A stretch of 64,000 nt of DNA from Oscillospiraceae bacterium. GTDB taxonomy: Bacteria > Bacillota > Clostridia > Oscillospirales > Ruminococcaceae. The stretch covers positions 62,001 through 126,000 of the forward strand of contig JAGAJN010000018.1 in NCBI GenBank assembly GCA_017828975.1, read 5' to 3'. The notes below the pieces were generated by a model. It ran no database searches and was not told where the DNA came from. It worked only from the letters and a program-made list of their open reading frames with translations. The translations under genes were made by a program, and so were the position numbers. Of the stretch, positions 35,303 through 47,338 are shown piece after piece; position 1 is the stretch's first letter; every line of letters begins with the position of its first letter.

Positions 35303-35337
35303 AAAAAATCCCTCCCTGCCGATATGACAGAGAGGGA
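35303..35337 (-). terminator. Terminator of the AspT-like transporter gene
   Basis: Minus-strand stem (35337-35328 with 35318-35309) and six T (35308-35303). Confidence 0.85.
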
Positions 35338-35358
35338 CAAACTATTTCGTTGATTATA

Positions 35359-36693
35359 TCACATCATATTGACAACAGCCAGCGCATCTGGGAACCACAC
35401 GATAACAAACTGCGAAACCAGAACAACAGCAATCAGAGCGATAGGATAAGCAGCCGCATATGCGGAAGCAACATCGTCTGTCTTTGCAACGTTGATAAGC
35501 GTTCCCAGGGCGGGTGTGGAAGTCATACCGCCTGTGATACCGCCAAGGTTGTTGAACAGAGGCAGCTTGATGATGAACTTTGCAATGATAAATCCAACTA
35601 TCATAGGAATAGTTGTCATCAGCACGCCGTAGAGGAAGTATTCCGGCTGGAAGTACTGAACGAAGCTTGCACCGCCGGGGATACCTGCGCCGATAAGGAA
35701 TGCCATCAGACCGAATTCACGGAAAATTTCCAGCATTCTCTTTTCGGGACGCATATTGAGCGCGCCGAAGTGTCCGAAATGAGCAACCACAAGGGAAGCC
35801 AGCAGACAGCCGCCTGTTGTTCCCAAAGAGAAGGTGGAGCTGCCCATAGGGATCTTGATACCGCCCAGAATCATACCGAGAACTACTGCAATAGCAAAAG
35901 CAGCCAGTCCGAAGCCGTCAATGTCAAACAGCTTCTTGCCGTCGTTCTTAGATGCACCTGTGTCAACGGAGGAGATCTTCTTTCTCTCCTCCTCAACGTT
36001 AGCCTTGAGGATCTTCGGGATAAGCTGAACGAACAGAACAACGCCCACAACGCCGAAGAGGTAAGCAATACCGTGTCCAACTGTAACAATGTCCTCAAAC
36101 TTGGAAATTGCCATCTTTGAAGCTTCTTCTGCGGTGATTCCGCTTGCAGCCGCATAGTCGATAATTGCCTGAGAGGAAGGACCGTAAACGGTGCTGAGTG
36201 TGTCCTTTGCAGCGGAGAATGCGGGAGTAGATGTAAGCGCACCGGAGAGGATTCCGACAGCCATAGCAGTTCCGCAGCCGAATATCTTAATGCAGGCAAC
36301 AGTTGTAACGCCGCCCAGCAGAATGATTATGAGGGACAGCAGAGCGTAGGACTTGAAATTCTTCTTAAGGCTTGTGAAGAAGTTAGGTCCTGCGATAAAT
36401 CCAACCGATGTAACGAACATAATAAGACCGAGATTTTCGATGATCTTAAGATAGTTTTTCGGGAATGAGCTTGTTGTTCCTGCGATCTGAGTGAAGATCT
36501 CACCTGTTTCAGCGTTATTCTTGAAGAGAAATGCGCCTATCAGCAGAGCAACAATGAAAACGCCCGCCGTACCCAGCGATACGCCCTTGATAGTAACACG
36601 TCCGAGCAGATAGCCCAGTCCTGCCACAAGGAAAACTATCATCATCAGGAAAGCAAGGCCTTTGATGGACAGTATTCCGCCAAACAAAACCAT
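35359..36693 (-). CDS. AspT/YidE-type (AAE family) transporter, possible succinate exporter
   Basis: 444 residues, SD GGAGG 9 nt upstream. Two AspT/YidE/YbjL duplication domains: first with LGLIMFVTSVGFIAGPNFF and GILSGALTSTPAF, second with EFGLMAFLIGAGIPGG and GGMTSTPALGTL followed by YAAAYPIALI. The central RCK/TrkA-C domains found in many AAE members are absent, so it is shorter than the usual 530-560 residues. Known relatives exchange aspartate/alanine (AspT) or export succinate (SucE). Placed after fumarate reductase and fumarase genes, export of succinate or another dicarboxylate is a good inference. It seems to have its own promoter. Confidence 0.85.
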   Translation of the reverse strand: MVLFGGILSIKGLAFLMMIVFLVAGLGYLLGRVTIKGVSLGTAGVFIVALLIGAFLFKNNAETGEIFTQIAGTTSSFPKNYLKIIENLGLIMFVTSVGFIAGPNFFTSLKKNFKSYALLSLIIILLGGVTTVACIKIFGCGTAMAVGILSGALTSTPAFSAAKDTLSTVYGPSSQAIIDYAAASGITAEEASKMAISKFEDIVTVGHGIAYLFGVVGVVLFVQLIPKILKANVEEERKKISSVDTGASKNDGKKLFDIDGFGLAAFAIAVVLGMILGGIKIPMGSSTFSLGTTGGCLLASLVVAHFGHFGALNMRPEKRMLEIFREFGLMAFLIGAGIPGGASFVQYFQPEYFLYGVLMTTIPMIVGFIIAKFIIKLPLFNNLGGITGGMTSTPALGTLINVAKTDDVASAYAAAYPIALIAVVLVSQFVIVWFPDALAVVNMM

Positions 36694-36791
36694 ATTGATA
36701 AACCTCCAAATATTTTTCTTCGGGACATTCCGATCAGCCCACTATCCCAAACAGGATAATGAATTGAGCGGAATACCCCTTTTGCACATCA

Positions 36792-36840
36792 CAACCCCCC
36801 GCAACAATGCAGGGGGTTGAAATCTGCCATAAAGATTATA
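36792..36840 (-). promoter_or_regulatory. Promoter and leader hairpin of the AspT-like transporter
   Basis: Minus strand TATAAT (36840-36835) with only a weak -35 (TGTTAA, 17 bp upstream). The leader of about 135 nt contains a hairpin with 8 pairs (36819-36812 with 36799-36792) and no T run. 36694-36897 holds no gene. Confidence 0.5.
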
Positions 36841-36897
36841 CTACAAAATTTAACCGATTAACAGTAGCAATTCAGAAAATTAACAGTTATTTTACCA

Positions 36898-38499
36898 TTA
36901 ATTAGCTTTTCTTGCATAATCGGGGAGCAGCTTGGGAGATACAGCGTCGGTAGAGATACCTGCGTCAGCCATTTCCTTTGCAAAGCTGTTTACATGGTCA
37001 AGTGTGAGCTTGCCGAGCTTAACTTCCTTGTACTTAGCAGCAACGCTCTTACCTGCGTTTCTGCCGAATACGATAACGTCAAGGAGAGAGTTGCCCATAA
37101 GTCTGTTTCTGCCGTGGATACCGCCGACAGCCTCACCTGCAACGTAGAGATTCTCAACGCCGCTCATGCCGTCATCGGTAATGTCGATACCGCCGTTCTG
37201 GTAGTGAAGTGTGGGGTATACGATAATGGGTTCCTTACGAATGTCAATGCCGTATTCCATGAACATTCTCAGCATTGCGGGAATTCTCTTTTCGATAGTA
37301 CCCTCGCCGTTTTTCAGCTCGATCATGGGAGTATCCAGCCATACGCCTTCGCCGTCGCCTGTGCTGATGCCCTTGTGTCTTGCCTTGCACTCTCTGATGA
37401 TACCGGAAGCACAGATGTCACGTGTTTCCAGGGGGTGCATAAATACTTCACCGTCAACGTTTACCAGCTTTGCGCCCAGAGAACGAACCTTTTCGGTAAC
37501 CAGCGCACCGAAGATCTGCTCGGGGAATGCTGCGCCTGTGGGGTGATACTGGAGAGAGTCAGCGTAAAGAAGCTTTGCGCCTGCTCTGTAAGCCAGAACA
37601 AGACCGTCAGCTGTTGCGCCATAGTGGTTGGAGGTGGGGAAGCCCTGATAATGCAGTCTGCCAGCGCCGCCTGTTGCAATAACGACGGTCTTTGCTCTTG
37701 CAACCATGATCTCCTTGGTTTCCATATTCATCAGAACAGCGCCGGCAGCCTTGCCCTCGTCGTCCTTGATGATCTCGATAGCAGCTGTAAAGTCAACAAC
37801 GGGAATACCTCTGTTGAGGACCTCGTCACGGAGAGTTCTCATGATCTCTGCGCCGGAGTAGTCCTTACAAGCGTGCATTCTCTTTCTGGAGGTTCCGCCG
37901 CCGTGAGTGGTGACCATTGTACCGTCCTCGGTCTTGTCGAATTCAACGCCCAGCTCGTTCAGCCACTTGATAGCGTCGGGAGCGTCGTTTACCAGCTTGT
38001 AAACCAGCTCATGCTTAGCCTTGAAGTGACCTCCGCCGTATGCGTCAACATAGTGGATAGCGGGGGAATCGTTGGGCTTATCGGCAGCCTGGATACCGCC
38101 CTCAGCCATCATTGTGTTAGCGTCACCGATACGCAGCTTTGTTACGATCATAACGTTAGCGCCGCCGTTGTGAGCCTCGATAGCTGCGGAAGAGCCTGCT
38201 CCGCCGCCGCCGATTACCAGAACGTCAACGTCATATGCAGGGTGCTCCAGATCGATCTTTGCGGGGTCGATACGGCTGTTAGCCTGAAGCAGAGCAGCCA
38301 GCTCGTGAGGTACCTTTTCGCCCTTGTTAGGACCGATCTTCAATGTGGAGAACTCGGACTCGATGTAGTCGGGGTGATATGTCTTGAGAATATCGTCCTT
38401 TTCCTGAGCTGTCATTCTGACAGGCTCGTAGGCTGCGTTTGCAGCTCTGTTAGCTTCGACCTTCTTGATCGAAGCGATCATTTCTTCGTTAGTATACAT
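36898..38499 (-). CDS. frdA: Fumarate reductase flavoprotein subunit, soluble non-covalent-FAD type
   Basis: 533 residues. Reduces fumarate to succinate. FAD-binding VLVIGGGGAGSSAAIEAH (about 94-110). Catalytic and substrate residues of the family are present: QYHPTG, TEKVRSLGAK (Arg), LHYQNGGIDI (His) and GRNRLMGNSL (Arg). At the site of the covalent FAD histidine (SHT in E. coli FrdA) the sequence is ANT (Asn128), so FAD should be bound non-covalently. A roughly 90-residue N-terminal extension precedes the Rossmann fold, which is unusual. No membrane-anchor gene is near. FrdB follows upstream by 15 bp. L-aspartate oxidase was considered and is less likely given frdB. Confidence 0.9.
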   Translation of the reverse strand: MYTNEEMIASIKKVEANRAANAAYEPVRMTAQEKDDILKTYHPDYIESEFSTLKIGPNKGEKVPHELAALLQANSRIDPAKIDLEHPAYDVDVLVIGGGGAGSSAAIEAHNGGANVMIVTKLRIGDANTMMAEGGIQAADKPNDSPAIHYVDAYGGGHFKAKHELVYKLVNDAPDAIKWLNELGVEFDKTEDGTMVTTHGGGTSRKRMHACKDYSGAEIMRTLRDEVLNRGIPVVDFTAAIEIIKDDEGKAAGAVLMNMETKEIMVARAKTVVIATGGAGRLHYQGFPTSNHYGATADGLVLAYRAGAKLLYADSLQYHPTGAAFPEQIFGALVTEKVRSLGAKLVNVDGEVFMHPLETRDICASGIIRECKARHKGISTGDGEGVWLDTPMIELKNGEGTIEKRIPAMLRMFMEYGIDIRKEPIIVYPTLHYQNGGIDITDDGMSGVENLYVAGEAVGGIHGRNRLMGNSLLDVIVFGRNAGKSVAAKYKEVKLGKLTLDHVNSFAKEMADAGISTDAVSPKLLPDYARKAN

Positions 38500-38514
38500 T
38501 ATCGGCAGCCTCCC

Positions 38515-39189
38515 TTACTTCTCGATCTCTCTGTTGTTGTACAGCTCCTGCAGCTCCTCATCGGACTTAGCCATAAGGTCATCAAGAGCAGCCTTGAAAT
38601 CGCCATTGTAGATTTCCTTAACTCTGTCCTCAAGGTGCTGAGTCTTAGGCTGGATATACTTACCGTTAAGACGGCGAGCCAGCATAGCGACCTGAGGATG
38701 GGAGATGCCTGCGGGACATCTGGAGGAGCAAACGCCGCACATTACGCAGTCGAAGGACTCGTCTGCACACTTAGCGTACTCACCTCTCTGAGCGTATGCG
38801 ATGTACTGCATAACGTTCAGCTTCTGAGTACAAGCCTTTGTACAAGCGTTACAGCCGATACAGCTGTAAATTTCGGGATAAAGCTGCATCATTACCTGCT
38901 CGGTGGGCTTGATCTCCTCGATATTGTAGATCTTCTTTTCAAGAGGGAAGAAAGGCAGTGTAGCAACATACATATTGTCCATTACCTTTGTCTGACAAGC
39001 CAGACAGCCGTGAAGCTCGCTCTCGCCCTTGATTCTGTAAATAGTAGCACAAGCTCCGCAGAAGCCGTTGCGGCAGCCGCAGCCTCTTACAAGCTCATAG
39101 CCGGCATATTCGTAAGCCTTCATAATGGTCAGGTTGGACGGAACTTCGTACTTCTTGCCCATCAAGAATACATTAACCATATTTTCCAT
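38515..39189 (-). CDS. frdB: Fumarate reductase iron-sulfur subunit
   Basis: 224 residues. Carries electrons to FrdA. Plant-type [2Fe-2S] site with Cys39, Cys44, Cys47 and Cys62, then a dicluster domain with CIGCNACTKAC (110-120) and CVMCGVCSSRC (148-158). Both later sites have four cysteines in CxxCxxCxxxC form, so two [4Fe-4S] clusters are expected instead of the usual [4Fe-4S] plus [3Fe-4S] of quinone-linked FrdB. That fits a soluble, non-quinone partner. It lacks the HdrB-like CCG domain of archaeal TfrB; a separate HdrB is encoded in the same operon. Confidence 0.9.
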   Translation of the reverse strand: MENMVNVFLMGKKYEVPSNLTIMKAYEYAGYELVRGCGCRNGFCGACATIYRIKGESELHGCLACQTKVMDNMYVATLPFFPLEKKIYNIEEIKPTEQVMMQLYPEIYSCIGCNACTKACTQKLNVMQYIAYAQRGEYAKCADESFDCVMCGVCSSRCPAGISHPQVAMLARRLNGKYIQPKTQHLEDRVKEIYNGDFKAALDDLMAKSDEELQELYNNREIEK

Positions 39190-39209
39190 TTCTAGGTACT
39201 CTCCTTATA

Positions 39210-40037
39210 TTAATATTCGTTGGGAAGCTGTGAAAGCTGATCGAATCTGAACACAGGTCCGTCCTTGCAGACGTACTTGGAACCGATATTGCATCTTCCG
39301 CACTTACCTACTCCGCATTTCATACGAAGCTCCATAGTTGTAAATACCTGAGTTTCCTGGAAACCCAGCTCCTTAAGTCCGCTGAGGGTGAACTTTATCA
39401 TGATAGGAGGTCCGCACATTACAACTGTCTTGCCGAGGTCGGGGTTCAGCTCCTTAACATAGTTGGGAACGAAGCCAACGTGACCGTCCCAGCCTTCCTG
39501 CTCACGGTCGATGGTAAGATTTACCTCGATGCCGTCATCAGCCATCCACTCGTCAATGATCTCCTTGTAGTCAACGAGATCGTCCATGGAACGGGAGCCG
39601 TAGATGATCTGCACCTTGCCGTAATTGTCACGCTTATCTCTAACATAGTTGATTACCGAACGGAGAGGAGCAAGACCGATACCGCCTGCGATAAAGAGCA
39701 GGTCCTTGCCCTTAAATGCAGATTCAACGGGGAAACCGTTTCCGTAGGGTCCTCTGATGGTGATCTGCTGACCAACGTCCATAGCATGGAGCCAGGTGGT
39801 CAGGCAGCCGCACTTTTTAATGCTGAATTCCATAAATTCGGTGTTTGTGGGAGAAGATGTAATTGAGAACATAGCCTCGCCAACGCCGGGGATAGAAAGC
39901 ATTGCACACTGTCCGGGAATATGCTCAAAAACCTTCTTGCCGTCCGTACCCACAACTCTGAATGTCTTGACATCGGGAGTATCCTGTCTGATGTCGGTCA
40001 CAACGCCGAGCTTGGGAATGAGTGTTTCGTCGATCAT
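39210..40037 (-). CDS. flxA: FAD/NAD(P)-binding oxidoreductase subunit (FlxA-like)
   Basis: 275 residues. Ferredoxin-reductase-type module: FAD site FSITSSPT, pyridine nucleotide site FIAGGIGLAPLRS and VVMCGPPIM, then a C-terminal [2Fe-2S] site (KCGVGKCGRCNIG with a later Cys in YVCKDG), as in hydrogenase gamma and PyrK subunits. In FlxABCD complexes this subunit oxidises NADH. Start overlaps the end of flxB by 4 bp (ATGA). The name is by family and context. Confidence 0.88.
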   Translation of the reverse strand: MIDETLIPKLGVVTDIRQDTPDVKTFRVVGTDGKKVFEHIPGQCAMLSIPGVGEAMFSITSSPTNTEFMEFSIKKCGCLTTWLHAMDVGQQITIRGPYGNGFPVESAFKGKDLLFIAGGIGLAPLRSVINYVRDKRDNYGKVQIIYGSRSMDDLVDYKEIIDEWMADDGIEVNLTIDREQEGWDGHVGFVPNYVKELNPDLGKTVVMCGPPIMIKFTLSGLKELGFQETQVFTTMELRMKCGVGKCGRCNIGSKYVCKDGPVFRFDQLSQLPNEY

Positions 40038-41059
40038 TTCGATTCTCCTTCCAATGTTTTCATAACCTTAACGATATTCATTGAGATAGGACACTTGGAA
40101 AGACATCTTCCGCAGCCTACGCAGCCGAATTCTCCGTCATTGTTAGCGGGGAAATAAACCAGCTTGTGCATGAAACGCTGTCTGAAACGCTCCAGCTGAG
40201 TAAGACGGGGGTTTCCGTGAGCCATCTTGGTAAAATCGGAGAACATACAGGAGTCCCAGCATCTGAAACGCTTAACGCCGTGACCCGTTTCAAAATCTCT
40301 GATGTCATAGCACTGACAGGTGGGGCATACGAAGGTACATGTACCGCAGCCCAGGCAGGAAGCGGAAAGCTCTGCCCACTTGGGAGAATCGAACAACTCC
40401 ATCAGCTTGTCGCCGCCGAAAGCATCGGTGGAGAGGTTTGCCAGAGGAAGCTTCGGGAGAATATCCTTAACAGCAGCCTTCTGAGCCTCAACAGCGGAAG
40501 CATCGCCGTCCTCAAGAACTGCCTTAACCTTTTCAACGAAAGCGGTTCCCTTTTCGGTCTTAGCTTCGATGAACAGCTCGTCCTCGGTCATATAGCAAAC
40601 TGCGTCACCCTCGGGAGCGGTGGGGTCTACGCCGAAAGCGGTGCAGAAGCAGGTCTCCTCGGGTCTGGAGCAAGCCATTGTAACGATAGTACCGTGCTCT
40701 CTTCTTGACTTATAATAAGTATCAACGGGATCGGCGAGGAAAACCTTGTCAAGGATAGAGAAGCTTCTTGCATCACAGGCTCTTACGCCGAATACAACGA
40801 AGTCCTCAGTTTCTGTTCTCGGGTCGATTATCTCTATTTCCTTGCCCTTCATCTTGAAATCAACAAGACTTTCGGTCTGAGGGAAGAAAAATTCCTTTGC
40901 GCTCTTGACGGTTTTCAGAGCCTTGCTCATTTCCATACCGTCGCACCATCTGGTGAAGCGTGCCTGACCTGCGCCGTCGTCTGCGGGAATGTAAAGCGCA
41001 CTGCCCTCTGCGGCAGCCTTAAACAGGTCGTTCAGGTTATTCAGGGAAAGCTTGAACAT
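40034..41059 (-). CDS. flxB: Ferredoxin-type subunit (FlxB-like, hydrogenase beta/HydB family)
   Basis: 341 residues. An N-terminal domain of about 220 residues with CDARSFSILDKVF and CSRPEETCFCTAFG is characteristic of the sulfhydrogenase beta/HydB family. The C-terminal dicluster has CLGCGTCTFVCPTC and CVGCGRCLSKCP. It should relay electrons between FlxA and the Hdr part. A 2-bp gap to flxC upstream indicates coupled translation. Confidence 0.85.
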   Translation of the reverse strand: MFKLSLNNLNDLFKAAAEGSALYIPADDGAGQARFTRWCDGMEMSKALKTVKSAKEFFFPQTESLVDFKMKGKEIEIIDPRTETEDFVVFGVRACDARSFSILDKVFLADPVDTYYKSRREHGTIVTMACSRPEETCFCTAFGVDPTAPEGDAVCYMTEDELFIEAKTEKGTAFVEKVKAVLEDGDASAVEAQKAAVKDILPKLPLANLSTDAFGGDKLMELFDSPKWAELSASCLGCGTCTFVCPTCQCYDIRDFETGHGVKRFRCWDSCMFSDFTKMAHGNPRLTQLERFRQRFMHKLVYFPANNDGEFGCVGCGRCLSKCPISMNIVKVMKTLEGESK

Positions 41060-41061
41060 TA

Positions 41062-42033
41062 TCAGTTACCTCCCTTTTCATATACTATGCTCGGCTCAAC
41101 GTCCTCTGTGTCGAAGATGTTAAGGGGAGCTCTTGTTTCGGTATCCTCGCCCGCCTGGAATTCACCGTAGAACTCGTTGATGTCCTTAATGAACTTTCTG
41201 TTCAGCAGGTGCAGGGGGATATTCTGGGGACAAACTCTGGAGCATTCGCCGCAGTCTGTGCAGCGTCCCGCAACGTGGAATGCACGGATAATATGGAACA
41301 TATTCTCCTCAAAGCTGTCAGCGGCAGCCTTCTGAGCGATACCCGAATTATCATTATCGAATACGCATCTTTCGCATGTACAAGCGGGGCAAACGTTACG
41401 GCAGGCGTTGCAGCGGATACATCTGGAAAGCTCACCTCTCCAGAAAGCAAATCTCTCCTCGGAGGACATTGCCTCCAGCTTTTCTACCATATCGAAGCGG
41501 TTGGACTCACAAACCTCTCCGTCCTCGCCCAGCAGCTCGTCATATGCAACGTGCTTCTTGGACTTGCAGGAAAGGCATCTCTCGGGGAGTGCGTCAGCCT
41601 TAGCAATGGTCTTTTCGCCGTAGAGGGTGTCAACAACGAAGCTGTCGCCCTCGGTCTTAATGCCTGTGATACCTGTGATACCCTTCAACTTAAGAGTTTC
41701 ACCATCGGTCTTTCCGTCGCAGGGAACGCCTACAACGTAGATATTATCACGGATAATACGGTGCTCCTTGGTAAGCTGGTTAAAGCTGTATGTATCGCAG
41801 GGCTTCAGGAAAACGAGAATTTTCCCTTCCTTGCGGGACTCCTTTACCAGATATTTTGAGAAATTTGCGCCGCAGAAGTCATTGTAAACAAAGCCTGCGT
41901 CCAGCTCCTCGGCAGAACTGAATACTGCGGGGGTAATATCGTAAGCGAAATCTCCCGCCTTCCAGCCGATCACACGATTGACGGTTCCGTTCTGCAGAAG
42001 CTCCTTAGCACGGGCGATCATTTTTCCTTGCAT
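41062..42033 (-). CDS. flxC: Iron-sulfur subunit (FlxC-like)
   Basis: 323 residues. The N-terminal part (LVFLKPCDTYSFNQL, VVGVPCDGKTDG) resembles the FrhB/FdhB-like family of electron-transfer subunits. Middle CLSCKSKKH; C-terminal dicluster with CIRCNACRNVCPACTCERC and CTDCGECSRVCP. Start ATG 42033 has GGAGG and overlaps flxD by 16 bp. Role by family: electron relay in the Flx module. Confidence 0.83.
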   Translation of the reverse strand: MQGKMIARAKELLQNGTVNRVIGWKAGDFAYDITPAVFSSAEELDAGFVYNDFCGANFSKYLVKESRKEGKILVFLKPCDTYSFNQLTKEHRIIRDNIYVVGVPCDGKTDGETLKLKGITGITGIKTEGDSFVVDTLYGEKTIAKADALPERCLSCKSKKHVAYDELLGEDGEVCESNRFDMVEKLEAMSSEERFAFWRGELSRCIRCNACRNVCPACTCERCVFDNDNSGIAQKAAADSFEENMFHIIRAFHVAGRCTDCGECSRVCPQNIPLHLLNRKFIKDINEFYGEFQAGEDTETRAPLNIFDTEDVEPSIVYEKGGN

Positions 42034-42461
42034 CTCAGATCCTCCAATCTCTTGTTCTCGCCGAGCTTGGTAACAGTCTCGACAAACTCATTCATAGTAG
42101 CGGCAAACTTTGCACCCTCAGCTGCGGATACCCATTCAACACGGGTCCTTTCTCTCTCAATGCCGAGGTAATCCAGCATAGAGAACAGCAGAGTCATTCT
42201 TCTTCTTGCATAGTAGTTGCCTGTGGTGTAGTGGCAGTCGCCGGGGTGGCAGCCGCACATGATAACGCCGTCAGCACCCCTCTGGAAGGCACGGAGAATA
42301 AACATAGGATTTACACGGCAGGAGCAGGGAACTCTGATGATCTTAACATCGGCAGGATAGTTAAGTCTGTTTGTTCCCGCTAAGTCAGCACCTGCATATG
42401 AACACCAGTTGCAGCAGAAAGCAACAATGGTAGGCTTAAATTCTTTTTCATTTACTTGCAT
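42018..42461 (-). CDS. flxD: MvhD-like [2Fe-2S] subunit (FlxD)
   Basis: 147 residues from ATG 42461, inside the end of hdrA; a longer upstream frame is only overlap with hdrA. MvhD/VhuD proteins connect an electron donor to HdrA. Start region FKPTIVAFCCNWCSYAGADLAG, then VPCSCRVNP and MCGCHPGDCHY give the five-cysteine [2Fe-2S] pattern. Overlaps hdrA by 10 bp and flxC by 16 bp. Confidence 0.92.
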   Translation of the reverse strand: MQVNEKEFKPTIVAFCCNWCSYAGADLAGTNRLNYPADVKIIRVPCSCRVNPMFILRAFQRGADGVIMCGCHPGDCHYTTGNYYARRRMTLLFSMLDYLGIERERTRVEWVSAAEGAKFAATMNEFVETVTKLGENKRLEDLRCKEK

Positions 42462-44443
42462 ATTGCATCTACCTCCGCCATAATCTGCTTGTTGGAGAAG
42501 CCCTTCAGATCCATTGCGCCGGAAGGACAAGCAACCGTACAAGCTCCGCAGCCCTGACATACAGCCTCGTTAACGGCAGCAACACGACGGATAGCCGTAG
42601 TTCTGTCGGGCATTCTGAATTCCTTGTCGGAATAGGTGATAGCACCGTAGGGACAAACCTTTTCACAGGAGGAGCAGCCGTTACACAGCATTTCATCGGA
42701 ATGAGCAACGCAGGGATTGCAGGTGAGCTTATCCTTGCAAAGCAGACCGATGACCTTAGCAGCAGCGGCACTTGCCTGAGATACAGTTTCGGGAATATCC
42801 TTAGGACCCTGACATGTACCCGAAAGGAACACGCCTGCTGTGGGGCTTTCTACGGGACGAAGCTTTGCGTGAGCCTCGGTGAAGAAGTCGTTGGTGTCCA
42901 TACTTGCGGTGAGCATTGTAGCAAGAGGTCTTGCACTCTTGTCAGGCTCGATAGCAGCGGCAAGAACAACGAGGTCTGCGCTGATATGGAGCTGCTCATT
43001 GGAGATAAGGTCTGATGCCTGAACATCGAGAGTACCGTCTGCTCTGGGAGCTACCTTTCCTACCATACCTTTAATATAGTGAACATTGTAATCCTCAACG
43101 GCTCTGCGGTAGAACTCGTCGAAGTTCTTACCGGGAGTACGCACGTCAATGTAGAATACATAAACGTCGGTGTCGGGATATTTTTCACGGGTAAGCATAG
43201 CGTGCTTAGCGGTGTACATACAGCAGATCTTGGAGCAGTAGGGCTTGCCGCAGCCGGAAGTGTCACGGGAGCCTACGCACTGTACGAACACGATAGTGTG
43301 GGGGTGCTTTCCGTCGGAGGGTCTGAGAAGCTGTCCGCTTGTAGGACCTGCCGCATTTGTCAGACGCTCGAATTCCAGAGAGGTGATAACGTCCTTGCTC
43401 TGAGAGTAAGCAAATTCATCGAAATTATCAAGCTTGATGGGATTGAAGCCTGTTGCGGCAACGATAGCACCGTACTTTTCCTCGATGATCTCGTCCTGCT
43501 GCTTGTAGTCGATAGCACCTGCGGTACAAACCTTGGAGCAGACGCCGCACTTGCCGTTCTTGAGCATATTACAGTAATCAGCATCAATGGTAGCTACCTT
43601 GGGAACAGCCTGAGCAAAGGGAATGTAGATAGCACGTCTGTTGTTCATTCCCAGATTGAACTCGTTGGGAACGTTCTTAACAGGGCACTTTTCGGTACAA
43701 ACGCCGCAGCCTGTACACTTGGTGGTATCAACATATCTAGCCTTCTTCTTAATGGAAACGGTGAAGTTACCAACGAAGCCCTTAACAGCAGTAACCTCAC
43801 TGTAAGAGTAGATGTGTATCTTTTCATTCTGAGCGCAGTCAACCATCTTAGGTGTCAGGATACAAGCTGCGCAGTCCAGTGTGGGGAATGTCTTGTCTAT
43901 CTGAGTCATCTTACCGCCGATGGTGGGCTTTGTTTCAACAATATCAACATCGAAGCCAGCCTCTGCAATATCCAGAGCTGTCTGAATACCTGCAATACCG
44001 CCTCCAATGACCAGAGCTCTCTTGACAACGGGGCTTTCGCCTGCTGTAAGAGGAGCATTCAGATGAACCTTTGCAATAGCAGCCTTACCGAGGATAATAG
44101 CCTTCTCGGTACCTGTCTGCTTGTCCTTATGTATCCAGGAGCACTGCTCACGGATATTTGCGATCTCGACCATGTAGGGGTTGATTCCCGCACCCTGAAC
44201 GGTCTTACGGAATGTAGCCTCGTGCATACGGGGCGAGCAGGAGCAGATAACAACGCCTGTAAGGTTATGTTCCTTGATAGCGTCCTTTATCATATTCTGA
44301 CCTGCTTCGGAGCACATGTACTGATAGTTAGTGGAGAAAACCACTCCCGGCTCTGACTTGAGAGCTTCGGAAACCGCCTCAACATCGACGGTTGCAGCGA
44401 TATTGCTTCCGCACCAACATACAAATACGCCAATTCTCTGCAT
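42452..44443 (-). CDS. hdrA: Heterodisulfide reductase subunit A
   Basis: 663 residues, full length. Flavin electron-bifurcating hub. N-terminal domain with cysteines (WCGSN, SCSPRMHEATFR), thioredoxin-reductase-like FAD domain (GGGIAG, 147-152), an inserted ferredoxin module (CTGCGVCTEKC 243-253 and CGVCSKVC), and a C-terminal ferredoxin with CNGCSSCEKVC (from 587) and CQGCGACTVAC (from 629). Organisms with HdrABC-FlxABCD use it without methanogenesis. SD GGAGG; 12 bp after hdrC. Confidence 0.95.
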   Translation of the reverse strand: MQRIGVFVCWCGSNIAATVDVEAVSEALKSEPGVVFSTNYQYMCSEAGQNMIKDAIKEHNLTGVVICSCSPRMHEATFRKTVQGAGINPYMVEIANIREQCSWIHKDKQTGTEKAIILGKAAIAKVHLNAPLTAGESPVVKRALVIGGGIAGIQTALDIAEAGFDVDIVETKPTIGGKMTQIDKTFPTLDCAACILTPKMVDCAQNEKIHIYSYSEVTAVKGFVGNFTVSIKKKARYVDTTKCTGCGVCTEKCPVKNVPNEFNLGMNNRRAIYIPFAQAVPKVATIDADYCNMLKNGKCGVCSKVCTAGAIDYKQQDEIIEEKYGAIVAATGFNPIKLDNFDEFAYSQSKDVITSLEFERLTNAAGPTSGQLLRPSDGKHPHTIVFVQCVGSRDTSGCGKPYCSKICCMYTAKHAMLTREKYPDTDVYVFYIDVRTPGKNFDEFYRRAVEDYNVHYIKGMVGKVAPRADGTLDVQASDLISNEQLHISADLVVLAAAIEPDKSARPLATMLTASMDTNDFFTEAHAKLRPVESPTAGVFLSGTCQGPKDIPETVSQASAAAAKVIGLLCKDKLTCNPCVAHSDEMLCNGCSSCEKVCPYGAITYSDKEFRMPDRTTAIRRVAAVNEAVCQGCGACTVACPSGAMDLKGFSNKQIMAEVDAICK

Positions 44444-44455
44444 TTTTTCTCCTCC

Positions 44456-44839
44456 TTATCTCTTATATTTGCGGAATGCGCTGACGATAGCCTGCTGAGG
44501 AAGATCCTCGTCCAGCATATCGGGGATATTTTCCGCCTTGATATGATTCATACCGCTCTGTCTTAAAACGGCATTTCTGATACCCTCTACGACCTTTGCG
44601 GGCTCAACACCTCTGGGGCAGCGCTCAACGCAGGCGTAGCAGGAAAGACATTTGTAGATAGAATCCGAGTTGAGCAGCGGCTCAAGATCACCCTTCTCTA
44701 CCATATAAACGAACTGATGGGGATGATATTCCATCTCGTCATATGAGGGACAGGTAGCCGAGCATTTGCCGCATCTCATACATTTCAGAACATTGACACC
44801 GCTGGAACGGAGTACCTGTTCCTTTGTTACCTTGCTCAT
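44456..44839 (-). CDS. hdrC: Heterodisulfide reductase subunit C
   Basis: 127 residues. Two [4Fe-4S] sites: Cys20, 23, 26, 30 and Cys64, 67, 70, 74. Passes electrons between HdrA and HdrB. Good SD (GGAG). A 103-bp gap with a hairpin separates it from hdrB, unlike the tight spacing elsewhere in the operon. Confidence 0.93.
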   Translation of the reverse strand: MSKVTKEQVLRSSGVNVLKCMRCGKCSATCPSYDEMEYHPHQFVYMVEKGDLEPLLNSDSIYKCLSCYACVERCPRGVEPAKVVEGIRNAVLRQSGMNHIKAENIPDMLDEDLPQQAIVSAFRKYKR

Positions 44840-44854
44840 AAAGAAGCTCCATTT

Positions 44855-44900
44855 CTCCGCCGAACATTTTCTTCGGGGAACGGTACATTCATCGGCGGAG
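44855..44900 (-). other. Intercistronic hairpin between hdrB and hdrC
   Basis: Perfect 9-bp inverted repeat (44855-44863 and 44892-44900) with a 28-nt loop that has an inner CCGAA/TTCGG pairing. No T run, so more likely an RNA processing or stability element than a terminator. Confidence 0.55.
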
Positions 44901-44942
44901 GAATGGACCGTATATGTATCCCCAAAACCTATGTAAGGTTTT

Positions 44943-45728
44943 TTAGTCCTTTACACCCAGAGCCTCAGCAAGAAGCTCAGTGAAGTAGTAAACGGGAATG
45001 TCACTTTCATCAGCGTTTTTATTGAGATTGTACAGGCAGAGAGGACAGGCAGTGATTATCATATCTGCGCCGTTTTCTGCCGCACTTGATGCTACCTTGT
45101 TGCTCTTTTTCTTAGCAAGAGCCTTGTCCTCCATGGTGACATAGCCGCCGCAGCATTCGTTGCGGTAGGGATAAACCACAGGCTCAGCACCGATAGCCCT
45201 GATGAAATCCTCGATAATTGTGGGGTTCTCGGGGTTATCCATCTGCATTACCTTGCCGGGACGAAGGAGCAGACAGCCGTAATATGCGGCGATCTTCTTG
45301 CCTGTCAGAGGATTTGTGACCTTCTCGGCGATCTTGTCAAAGCCGACTCTGTCACGGAGCATTTCCAGATAGTGGATAACGTTTGTTTCTCCGTTATAAG
45401 GCACATCAAGCTTCATATAGTTGTTAGCCTTTGCGGAAAAATCGGGGTCGTTCTTCATAGCGTCATTGGTCTGCTTGAGAACGTTGTGGCACGCCGAGCA
45501 AAGTGTAACAAGGTCATTGCCCTTATCCTTTGCCGAAGCGAGGGATCTAACGGCAGACAGCTTGGAAGCTATCTCGTCCTTGGACATGGAGAAGGTTCCT
45601 CCGCAGCACTGCCAGTCGGGAAGCTCTTCAAGCGTAACGCCCAAAGCTTCTGCGGCTTTTCTGCCGTATCTGTCCAGATCCTTGGCTTTAGTTTTCAGCG
45701 TACAGCCGGGATAGTAACTGAAAGTCAT
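44943..45728 (-). CDS. hdrB: Heterodisulfide reductase subunit B
   Basis: 261 residues with two intact CCG domains: Cys9, Cys41-Cys42, Cys77, Cys80; and Cys152, Cys192-Cys193, Cys228, Cys231. In HdrB these hold two noncubane [4Fe-4S] clusters that reduce a disulfide. Here no DsrC or other disulfide carrier is in the window; FrdAB downstream may be the final acceptor instead. Lies 113 bp after fumC with a strong hairpin in the gap. Confidence 0.93.
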   Translation of the reverse strand: MTFSYYPGCTLKTKAKDLDRYGRKAAEALGVTLEELPDWQCCGGTFSMSKDEIASKLSAVRSLASAKDKGNDLVTLCSACHNVLKQTNDAMKNDPDFSAKANNYMKLDVPYNGETNVIHYLEMLRDRVGFDKIAEKVTNPLTGKKIAAYYGCLLLRPGKVMQMDNPENPTIIEDFIRAIGAEPVVYPYRNECCGGYVTMEDKALAKKKSNKVASSAAENGADMIITACPLCLYNLNKNADESDIPVYYFTELLAEALGVKD

Positions 45729-45781
45729 AGTAATTTTCCTTTCCCCGAACGTACCTTGCCGATACGCCCGTATATATTTGA

Positions 45782-45818
45782 GGGCAGCAGAAGAAGGCGT
45801 TACCCTCCTCTGCTTCCC
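45782..45818 (-). other. Strong hairpin between fumC and hdrB
   Basis: Arms 45818-45803 and 45797-45782, 16 positions with one mismatch and two G-U pairs, 5-nt loop. No T run after it. It could separate fumC mRNA from the hdr-flx-frd mRNA or act as a partial terminator. Confidence 0.6.
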
Positions 45819-45841
45819 AATGGTTGCATTTGTCGATCAGA

Positions 45842-47218
45842 TCAAACCATCTGCTCGGGGTGGAACACCTCATCAAACTTCTCTGCTGTCAGGAAGCCCA
45901 GCTCTACGCAGGCTTCTTTCAGTGAGATATTGTCCTTGTATGCCTTCTTAGCGGTCTTTGCAGCATTCTCGTAACCGATATAGGGGTTGAGAGCTGTTAC
46001 CAGCATAAGAGAGTTGTGGAGATTGTGGTGCATCTTTTCCTTGTTAGCCTTGATGCCAACTGCGCAGTTCTTGTTGAAAGACAGGATAGCCTCGGCAAGA
46101 AGTCTTGCGGACTGGAGGAAATTGTATGCGCAAACGGGCATGAACACATTCAGCTCGAAATTGCCCTGAGATGCAGCCATACCAACAGCAACATCATTGC
46201 CCATTACCTGAACGGCAACCATAGTAACAGCCTCACACTGAGTGGGGTTTACCTTGCCGGGCATAATGGAGGAACCGGGCTCATTTTCGGGAATGAAGAT
46301 CTCGCCCAGACCGTCACGGGGACCGCTTGCCAGCCATCTTACATCGTTTGCGATCTTCATCATATCGGCAGCGAGAGCCTTGATAGCACCGTGAGCGAAC
46401 ACGATCTCGTCCTTGCTTGTAAGAGAATGGAACTTGTTATCGGAGGTAACGAAAGCCTTGCCTGTCAGCTCTGCAACAGCCTTTGCGACCTCAACATCAA
46501 AGCCCTTGGGAGTGTTCAGACCCGTACCAACGGCAGTTCCGCCGAGAGCAAGCTCCTTTAAGCCGGGAAGAGCCATTTCCAGCATCTTCTTGTCCTTTTC
46601 AAGGGAGGAACGCCAGCCGCTTATCTCCTGAGAGAACTTGATGGGAGTAGCGTCCTGGAGATGAGTACGTCCGCTCTTTACGATACCCTCGTTTTCCTCT
46701 TCAAGGCGCTTGAATGTAGCGATAAGTGTATCAACAGCGGGGATAAGCTTGTCCTCAACAGCGATAACTGCGGAAATGTGCATAGCTGTGGGGAATGTAT
46801 CGTTAGAGGACTGACTCATATTGATGTCATCATTGGGGTGAAGCAGCTTCTTGCCTGCGATCTCGTTGCCTCTGTTGGCAATTACCTCGTTAGCGTTCAT
46901 ATTGGACTGAGTGCCGCTTCCTGTCTGCCATACTACCAGCGGGAAATGGTCGTTCAGAGAGCCGCTGATAACTTCGTCACAAGCTGCGGAGATAGCAGCA
47001 AGCTTTTCGTCTGTCATCTTCTCGGGCTTGAGAGCGTGGTTTGCGATAGCGGCAGCCTTTTTGAGGATACCGAAGGCGTGAGTGATCTCACGGGGCATGG
47101 TTTCGATACCTACACCGATAAGGAAGTTTTCGTGGCTTCTTTCGGTCTGGGCAGCCCAGTATTTGTCGGCAGGAACCTTGACCTCGCCCATAGAATCGTG
47201 TTCAATACGATATTCCAT
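45842..47218 (-). CDS. fumC: Fumarate hydratase class II
   Basis: 458 residues. Interconverts malate and fumarate without an iron-sulfur cluster. WQTGSGTQSNMNANEVIANR, HPNDDINMSQSSNDTFPTAMHI and the loop GSSIMPGKVNP are fumarase-type; aspartase has different residues at the first block. First gene of the operon and supplier of fumarate to FrdAB. SD GAGG with the start 86 nt after the predicted transcription start. Confidence 0.95.
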   Translation of the reverse strand: MEYRIEHDSMGEVKVPADKYWAAQTERSHENFLIGVGIETMPREITHAFGILKKAAAIANHALKPEKMTDEKLAAISAACDEVISGSLNDHFPLVVWQTGSGTQSNMNANEVIANRGNEIAGKKLLHPNDDINMSQSSNDTFPTAMHISAVIAVEDKLIPAVDTLIATFKRLEEENEGIVKSGRTHLQDATPIKFSQEISGWRSSLEKDKKMLEMALPGLKELALGGTAVGTGLNTPKGFDVEVAKAVAELTGKAFVTSDNKFHSLTSKDEIVFAHGAIKALAADMMKIANDVRWLASGPRDGLGEIFIPENEPGSSIMPGKVNPTQCEAVTMVAVQVMGNDVAVGMAASQGNFELNVFMPVCAYNFLQSARLLAEAILSFNKNCAVGIKANKEKMHHNLHNSLMLVTALNPYIGYENAAKTAKKAYKDNISLKEACVELGFLTAEKFDEVFHPEQMV

Positions 47219-47310: not shown

Positions 47311-47338
47311 ATTATATTACTTTTTTCGGGATTGTCAA
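47311..47338 (-). promoter_or_regulatory. Promoter of the fumC-hdr-flx-frd operon
   Basis: Minus strand TTGACA (47338-47333), 16-bp spacer, TATAAT (47316-47311): both boxes are consensus. Confidence 0.9.

Follow-up and report, generated by a model that had tools for sequence, protein, structure and literature searches.

An operon uniting hdrABC-flxABCD with frdAB in gut Clostridia encodes a candidate soluble, quinone-independent NADH:fumarate reductase

A window of 64,000 nucleotides (the whole stretch analysed, from contig JAGAJN010000018.1 of an Oscillospiraceae bacterium) carries an operon that probably encodes a soluble, quinone-independent NADH:fumarate reductase also reducing ferredoxin by flavin-based electron bifurcation (rough probability 0.72). 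Open reading frames (ORFs) and family searches identify eleven minus-strand genes, from position 47218 down to 35359, in the order fumC-hdrBCA-flxDCBA-frdBA, followed by the gene for an AspT-type permease. These results agree with the ten same-strand genes, the transporter and the family identities listed in a first-pass annotation of this DNA, the interpretation of which is supported overall and constitutes the best supported inference. The operon is real, and its gene arrangement is far beyond chance, because the same order recurs in relatives. The host genome is represented by a 2.57 Mb assembly that is 94.67% complete, in which the window spans positions 62001-126000 of contig C6. The genes and associated signals, with lengths in amino acids (aa), are as follows.

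47311..47338, minus strand: promoter-like TTGACA-N16-TATAAT upstream of fumC (12/12 consensus match, not proof)
45842..47218, minus strand: fumC, class II fumarase, 458 aa (Lyase_1, FumaraseC_C)
44943..45728, minus strand: hdrB, 261 aa (two CCG motifs, 10 Cys)
44456..44839, minus strand: hdrC, 127 aa (two 4Fe-4S motifs)
42452..44443, minus strand: hdrA, 663 aa, FAD and 4Fe-4S protein, putative bifurcation site (family matches, 5odc_A)
42018..42461, minus strand: flxD (MvhD/FlpD family), 147 aa from the likely start (family match)
41062..42033, minus strand: flxC, 323 aa, 4Fe-4S protein (position and Fe-S motifs only)
40034..41059, minus strand: flxB, 341 aa, 4Fe-4S protein (resembles sulfhydrogenase beta / AsrA)
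39210..40037, minus strand: flxA, 275 aa, FAD/NAD(P)-binding reductase, putative NADH entry (family matches)
38515..39189, minus strand: frdB, 224 aa ([2Fe-2S] motif and two CxxCxxCxxxC motifs)
36898..38499, minus strand: frdA, 533 aa flavoprotein (extended by 88 residues at the N-terminus; Asn128 in place of the FAD-binding His; no Succ_DH_flav_C)
35359..36693, minus strand: AspT/YidE/YbjL-family permease, 444 aa, possible succinate transporter (family matches)
35308..35338, minus strand: terminator-like hairpin, 13 pairs with a T tail, just 3' of the permease gene

The promoter-like sequence at 47338-47311 was the sole 12/12 match within the 14.2 kb scanned, in which 23 matches of at least 9/12 were found against 15.4 expected, and from fumC to the start of the permease gene the minus strand yielded no terminator-like site, in agreement with the single consensus promoter proposed in the first-pass annotation. 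That annotation also described many genes as overlapping by 4-16 bp. The overlaps themselves are real, but concern only three of the nine fumC-to-frdA junctions (10, 16 and 4 nt) and were thus somewhat overstated; at the other junctions the genes stand 2 to 113 nt apart, with flxD taken from its likelier start at 42461 (147 aa) rather than from 42560, where the listed ORF begins. The permease gene starts 204 nt behind frdA. All seven HdrABC-FlxABCD subunits, with their FAD, NAD and Fe-S domains, are present, FlxC being called from its position and Fe-S motifs. A crude hydropathy scan detected no membrane-type segments in any of the ten enzyme subunits and ten in the permease, which contains the AspT/YidE/YbjL duplication domain (TIGR01625, 155.6 bits, cut-off 72; PF06826).

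Within the class, this FrdA and this HdrA occur together almost without exception. In a sample of 291 genomes of the Clostridia, FrdA was found in 40 (E≤1e-100), HdrA in 41 (E≤1e-150) and the two together in 39, where 5.6 genomes would be expected (Fisher p 8e-45, without correction for relatedness), a near one-to-one relationship consistent with the association across the class that the first-pass annotation had proposed to check. The two genes lay on one contig in 33 of these 39 genomes and on different contigs of broken assemblies in the other six. The exceptions to co-occurrence were genomes G363 (75% complete), with FrdA only, G327 (62% complete), with HdrA only, and G319 (complete), with only an HdrA of 47% identity. 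Among the regions examined, from 38 of the 39 other genomes with FrdA, 37 had flxA, frdB and frdA adjacent; an hdr gene was present upstream in 32 of these, and the remaining five reach a contig end within 4 kb. The 38th region (L118) contains the full set reordered, as frdBA-hdrBCA-flxDCBA; the frd-hdr-flx linkage survives altered gene order. With fumC upstream in 13 of the 38 regions and the permease gene downstream in 24, these two genes are less constant.

Named relatives were counted at the best 80 of more than 587 named loci, and these counts lean towards sameness because the loci are the most similar ones, a bias from which the class sample is free. In this set, frdB, flxA-D and hdrA-C were each present wherever the upstream DNA sufficed (e.g. 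hdrB in 64/64), and fumC and the permease gene were found in 60/62 and 47/60, respectively. Ruminococcus flavefaciens FD-1 (L193) has the full operon, and FrdA was detected in 52 of 60 genomes of its genus (two only as contig-end fragments) and in none of the other eight. The closest named FrdA sequences (93, 91 and 89% identity) come from metagenome-assembled genomes labelled Ruminococcus sp. or Oscillospiraceae, and gut samples are named in many of the titles of the best 80 FrdA relatives, a list that may omit the genome studied here; the host is probably a Ruminococcus-like gut bacterium. The operon looks like a common succinate-making route among gut Clostridia. At locus L105 of genome G462, tblastn splits hdrA into two pieces and the genome search covers residues 251-663 only, possibly due to a frameshift or assembly error.

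FrdA has about 88 residues ahead of its FAD domain, for which Pfam gives FAD_binding_2 and not Succ_DH_flav_C, and a PF02910 search of the genome did not match it. The family is sharply bounded: 48 of 299 genomes from a phylum sample match at E≤1e-60, of which 30 (this genome included) give a near full-length match with at least 52% identity, the remaining matches having at most 42% identity and beginning only at about residue 83. In the alignment with Escherichia coli SdhA (1nek), the catalytic positions H319, T335, E336, R360, H432 and R466 are kept, and they are invariant in FrdA alignments of 24 and 30 sequences; we take these residues to have their Sdh/Frd catalytic roles and to hold both fumarate carboxylates. 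The residue corresponding to the covalently FAD-binding His of Sdh/Frd enzymes is Asn in 79 of the best 80 named relatives. Replacement of this His in E. coli Frd is reported to spare fumarate reduction and impair succinate oxidation, and Asn128 suggests non-covalent FAD binding and a bias towards fumarate reduction. The sole relative among these 80 with His at this position (L145) could show regained covalent FAD. The best NCBIfam match of FrdA was TfrA (337 bits), under the cut-off of 718. Identification as the L-aspartate oxidase NadB was rejected, as the NadB models scored lower than TfrA and did not reach their cut-offs (TIGR00551, 270 bits, cut-off 453) and frdB adjoins frdA.

The four cysteines of the FrdB [2Fe-2S] cluster (C39, C44, C47 and C65) are invariant across 30 sequences. 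Among 76 FrdB sequences, a stricter [2Fe-2S] pattern fits 71, the other five deviating at C37 or C62 and none at the four cysteines; all 76 contain two CxxCxxCxxxC motifs, and none shows the [3Fe-4S] pattern that SdhB-type, quinone-reacting enzymes have. FrdB lacks a CCG domain and scores only 34 of 385 bits against the model for TfrB, the Fe-S subunit of thiol:fumarate reductase. The profile positions matched are 19-148 for FrdB, 132-220 for HdrC and 264-487 for HdrB, all far under cut-off, and this succession suggests that the three proteins resemble a split TfrB, with a path from HdrB to FrdB and then to FAD. The alignment of HdrA with its counterpart in the solved methanogen complex 5odc spans the protein from end to end (5odc_A, E 7.4e-204). 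HdrB has exactly ten Cys, at positions conserved in solved HdrB, and both CCG motifs are kept in 64/64 relatives; its non-cubane clusters are probably retained, either to carry electrons to FrdB or to act on a disulfide. HdrB also matches SdhE, a CCG subunit, with 141 bits (cut-off 500).

From the families to which HdrA and the Flx proteins belong, we infer a bifurcating complex with the following path. Electrons from NADH would enter at FlxA and be relayed by FlxB, FlxC and FlxD to HdrA, the FAD of which would split the stream. The downhill branch would run through HdrC and HdrB to FrdB and the FAD of FrdA, reducing fumarate to succinate, with HdrB and FrdB acting as the two parts that TfrB has in one chain; the uphill branch would pass from HdrA to ferredoxin. 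FumC would supply fumarate, Rnf could re-oxidise ferredoxin (one RnfC was found in the genome, 419 bits) and the AspT-type permease may export succinate. With potentials of -320 mV for NADH, +30 mV for fumarate and -420 to -500 mV for ferredoxin, the computed energy change for 2 NADH + fumarate + ferredoxin is about -48 to -33 kJ per fumarate, and the reaction is energetically feasible.

We investigated whether the genome encodes the usual alternatives. No match was obtained in it for canonical SdhB/FrdB (PF13085), for the prenyltransferase UbiA or for DsrC; among 14 controls, the same searches matched in 11, 14 and 1 (E. coli), respectively. All known quinone pathways need a UbiA enzyme, to our knowledge; the quinone-free character claimed in the first-pass annotation is supported. 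Its claim of a soluble enzyme without a membrane anchor agrees with the hydropathy scan and the lack of a PF13085 match, the anchor families not having been searched. A separate membrane Frd elsewhere in the genome was likewise rejected for want of a PF13085 match (anchor families, b-type cytochromes and hydrogenases not searched), and the sole PF02910 match, considered as a second Frd, proved to be of AprA type (952 bits, cut-off 557). This protein (L001:1465-3204, on contig C2 of the genome) is of the adenylyl-sulfate reductase alpha type (NF005331), in a gut fermenter in which no DsrC was found.

The absence of UbiA and DsrC extends to most of the 38 other carriers in the class. UbiA exceeded the cut-off in four of them and matched below it in three more; DsrC exceeded it in none and matched below it in one, in line with the earlier proposal that DsrC, the usual partner, is replaced here. 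PF13085 matched in five of ten named carriers, over the cut-off in two. R. flavefaciens FD-1 (G580) gave no match, and the weak match in G584 is probably the operon FrdB, because it lies directly upstream of the operon's own frdA.

FrdAB loci outside the class reveal other combinations. The set consists of 30 family loci from the phylum sample, excluding the one studied here and including two from G091. One locus (L057) has the order hdrCBA-flxDCBA-frdBA and four have frdBA-hdrBCA-flxDCBA. Eight contain hdr genes with a long second HdrA (L049 is cut by the contig and L055 differs), which has a Pyr_redox_2 or GltD-like part in the two loci examined. These two proteins (L032:7913-11125, 1070 aa; L055:7904-12373, 1489 aa) adjoin hdrCB and frdBA, with no flxA or flxB match, and possibly represent a fused NAD(P)H entry. 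Two loci (L039 and L047) have hdrCB-frdBA only. As HdrB and HdrC are the smallest clear Hdr part beside frdBA, this arrangement fits HdrB as the direct donor to FrdB. Other family loci have genes for class I fumarase, malic enzyme, pyruvate carboxylase or 2-oxoglutarate synthase as neighbours, a carbon-metabolism setting consistent with fumarate as the substrate. In the three most divergent members (52-53% identity; L059-L061), frdBA is followed by related proteins, one of which, in L059, is a cytochrome b561 with Fer4, possibly corresponding to a membrane version of the FrdAB module. A protein with FMN_bind and 4Fe-4S domains near frdBA (L034:10348-11385), with unassigned genes around it and similar genes in L046, suggests another electron partner. 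The two FrdA-family genes of G091 (L046 and L058) lie about 90 kb apart, with no clear hdr set near either.

Several observations weigh against a bifurcating fumarate reductase. No biochemical proof was found for any member of this enzyme kind in the literature searched, the first-pass annotation having known of none either, and the absence claims rest on a genome that is 94.67% complete. The conservation of the HdrB CCG motifs is equally expected of a true disulfide reductase. Outside the class, 15 of the 30 loci show no clear set of hdr genes nearby, contig ends cutting some of these regions short; FrdAB therefore does not need Hdr everywhere and also works with other partners, its tie to Hdr/Flx being looser beyond the class than within it. 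The rise in expression of a comparable operon in Pseudoclostridium thermosuccinogenes was not significant for all subunits (PMC7282089), and high fumarate reductase transcription was not seen in two ruminococci in a rumen study, data not shown there, in which this FrdA may not have been counted (PMC8092306).

The least improbable of the alternatives, though still unlikely, is a thiol-linked route, in which a disulfide, either a small molecule or a protein, is reduced by HdrABC-FlxABCD and the resulting dithiol serves FrdAB as the electron donor for fumarate reduction, similarly to methanogen TfrAB. Such a route would account for the two CCG motifs of HdrB and for TfrA being the best match of FrdA, but FrdB itself lacks a CCG domain through which thiol electrons could enter, and DsrC was detected neither in this genome nor, over the cut-off, in the other carriers, which leaves other disulfides as candidates. 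It is also unlikely that Hdr-Flx is merely a wire in a soluble NADH:fumarate reductase that reduces no ferredoxin. By itself, electron transfer from NADH to fumarate is already highly exergonic (-67.5 kJ, computed), so that coupling is not a requirement; against this, HdrA is full length, with an end-to-end alignment to HdrA of the solved methanogen complexes, and HdrA and seven extra subunits would be superfluous in so simple an enzyme.

An unsaturated acid other than fumarate as the FrdAB substrate is the least probable alternative of all: the family is just 36-42% identical to other Frd/Sdh-like proteins of the phylum sample, but the residues presumed to hold both carboxylates are invariant, fumC frequently lies upstream, and the carbon-metabolism genes named above adjoin other family loci. 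Operation in reverse, with succinate and reduced ferredoxin co-oxidised to form NADH, is very improbable. The fumarase and SucE-like permease genes in the operon, the gut relatives and the Asn in place of the FAD-binding His argue against this direction, although such enzymes are reversible in principle and flx-hdr genes with tfrAB are found in autotrophic symbionts (PMC6315080, PMC11636981).

On the bifurcating reading, a broader picture can be drawn, to which we would give slightly better than even odds. Gut Ruminococcus and many quinone-less Clostridia would make succinate with a soluble HdrABC-FlxABCD-FrdAB complex rather than by membrane respiration, the HdrB non-cubane clusters serving as a wire to FrdB and each fumarate also yielding reduced ferredoxin for Rnf or H2. 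The acceptor of the Hdr core, the engine of the system, would then be exchangeable, and FrdAB would be a module for accepting electrons that other lineages connect to different donors (a cytochrome b, or an HdrA fused to a pyridine-nucleotide reductase part).

Succinate is an important electron sink in the rumen and gut. In a review of rumen hydrogen flow, fumarate reduction is stated to be coupled to electron-transport-linked phosphorylation, and the formation of succinate or propionate by R. flavefaciens to fall in co-culture with methanogens (PMC7174568, the latter citing Latham and Wolin 1977). If the operon works as proposed, a large group of fibre degraders would conserve energy via ferredoxin instead, changing ATP and H2 balances. 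R. flavefaciens is a cultured organism in which the question is testable, because FD-1 has the full operon and no canonical SdhB/FrdB match. The figure legend on bifurcation in fermentation of a 2024 review names four enzymes, none of them a fumarate reductase (PMC11187502). The breadth of the operon is the interesting part, its kind having already been proposed.

The seven-subunit gene set, NADH input and HdrA core are shared with HdrABC-FlxABCD of Desulfovibrio vulgaris, reportedly described by Ramos et al. in 2015. The partner of that complex is DsrC or another disulfide, whereas here the operon includes frdBA and DsrC was not detected in the genome. The methanogen thiol:fumarate reductase TfrAB, said to have been described by Heim et al. 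in 1998, resembles the present proteins in being the best match of FrdA and in the coverage of successive TfrB-profile parts by FrdB, HdrC and HdrB. Unlike TfrAB, all of these are under the curated cut-offs and the CCG part is a separate protein, and the electrons would come from NADH rather than from the thiols of coenzymes M and B. The resemblance of HdrB to SdhE is a likeness to the 8-methylmenaquinol:fumarate reductase SdhABE, which is membrane-bound and menaquinol-dependent, unlike the system studied here, in the host genome of which no UbiA was found. Quinol:fumarate reductases and succinate dehydrogenases differ in the features for which we found no counterpart (PF13085, the [3Fe-4S] pattern, UbiA; anchor families not searched) and in the His replaced here by Asn. 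The permease shares its duplication domain with SucE-type exporters, making succinate export a putative function.

In tubeworm symbionts, flxABCD-hdrABC genes are interspersed with tfrAB and direct electron transfer to the fumarate reductase has been proposed; these are autotrophic Gammaproteobacteria with a reductive tricarboxylic acid cycle and korABCD in the cluster, and tfrAB expression did not track that of the rest of the cluster (PMC6315080 and PMC11636981). The phrase "bifurcating fumarate reductase" was not found in the literature searched, which excluded most subscription papers, and a search by titles and abstract starts, with the same restriction, found no description of the operon in Ruminococcus. 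The proposal of bifurcation is nonetheless already in print for P. thermosuccinogenes, and apparently unproven there (PMC7282089, as for the following details). Ferredoxin-linked fumarate reduction is assumed there, citing a 2019 preprint by Koendjbiharie and van Kranenburg, and a "succinate operon" (CDQ83_RS03365 to RS03315) is described, up about 4-fold under CO2 limitation. It comprises a fumarate hydratase, an NADH dehydrogenase/heterodisulfide reductase complex (RS03360-30, which makes seven tags if the numbering runs in fives), two fumarate reductase genes and a hypothetical protein suggested to be a succinate transporter. The combination of fumarase, hdrABC, flxABCD, frdAB and putative transporter in one operon is of this type by published description, although P. 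thermosuccinogenes is another organism, a thermophile. New here are the almost one-to-one linkage across the class, the absence of quinone genes and the presence in most sampled genomes of the genus Ruminococcus.

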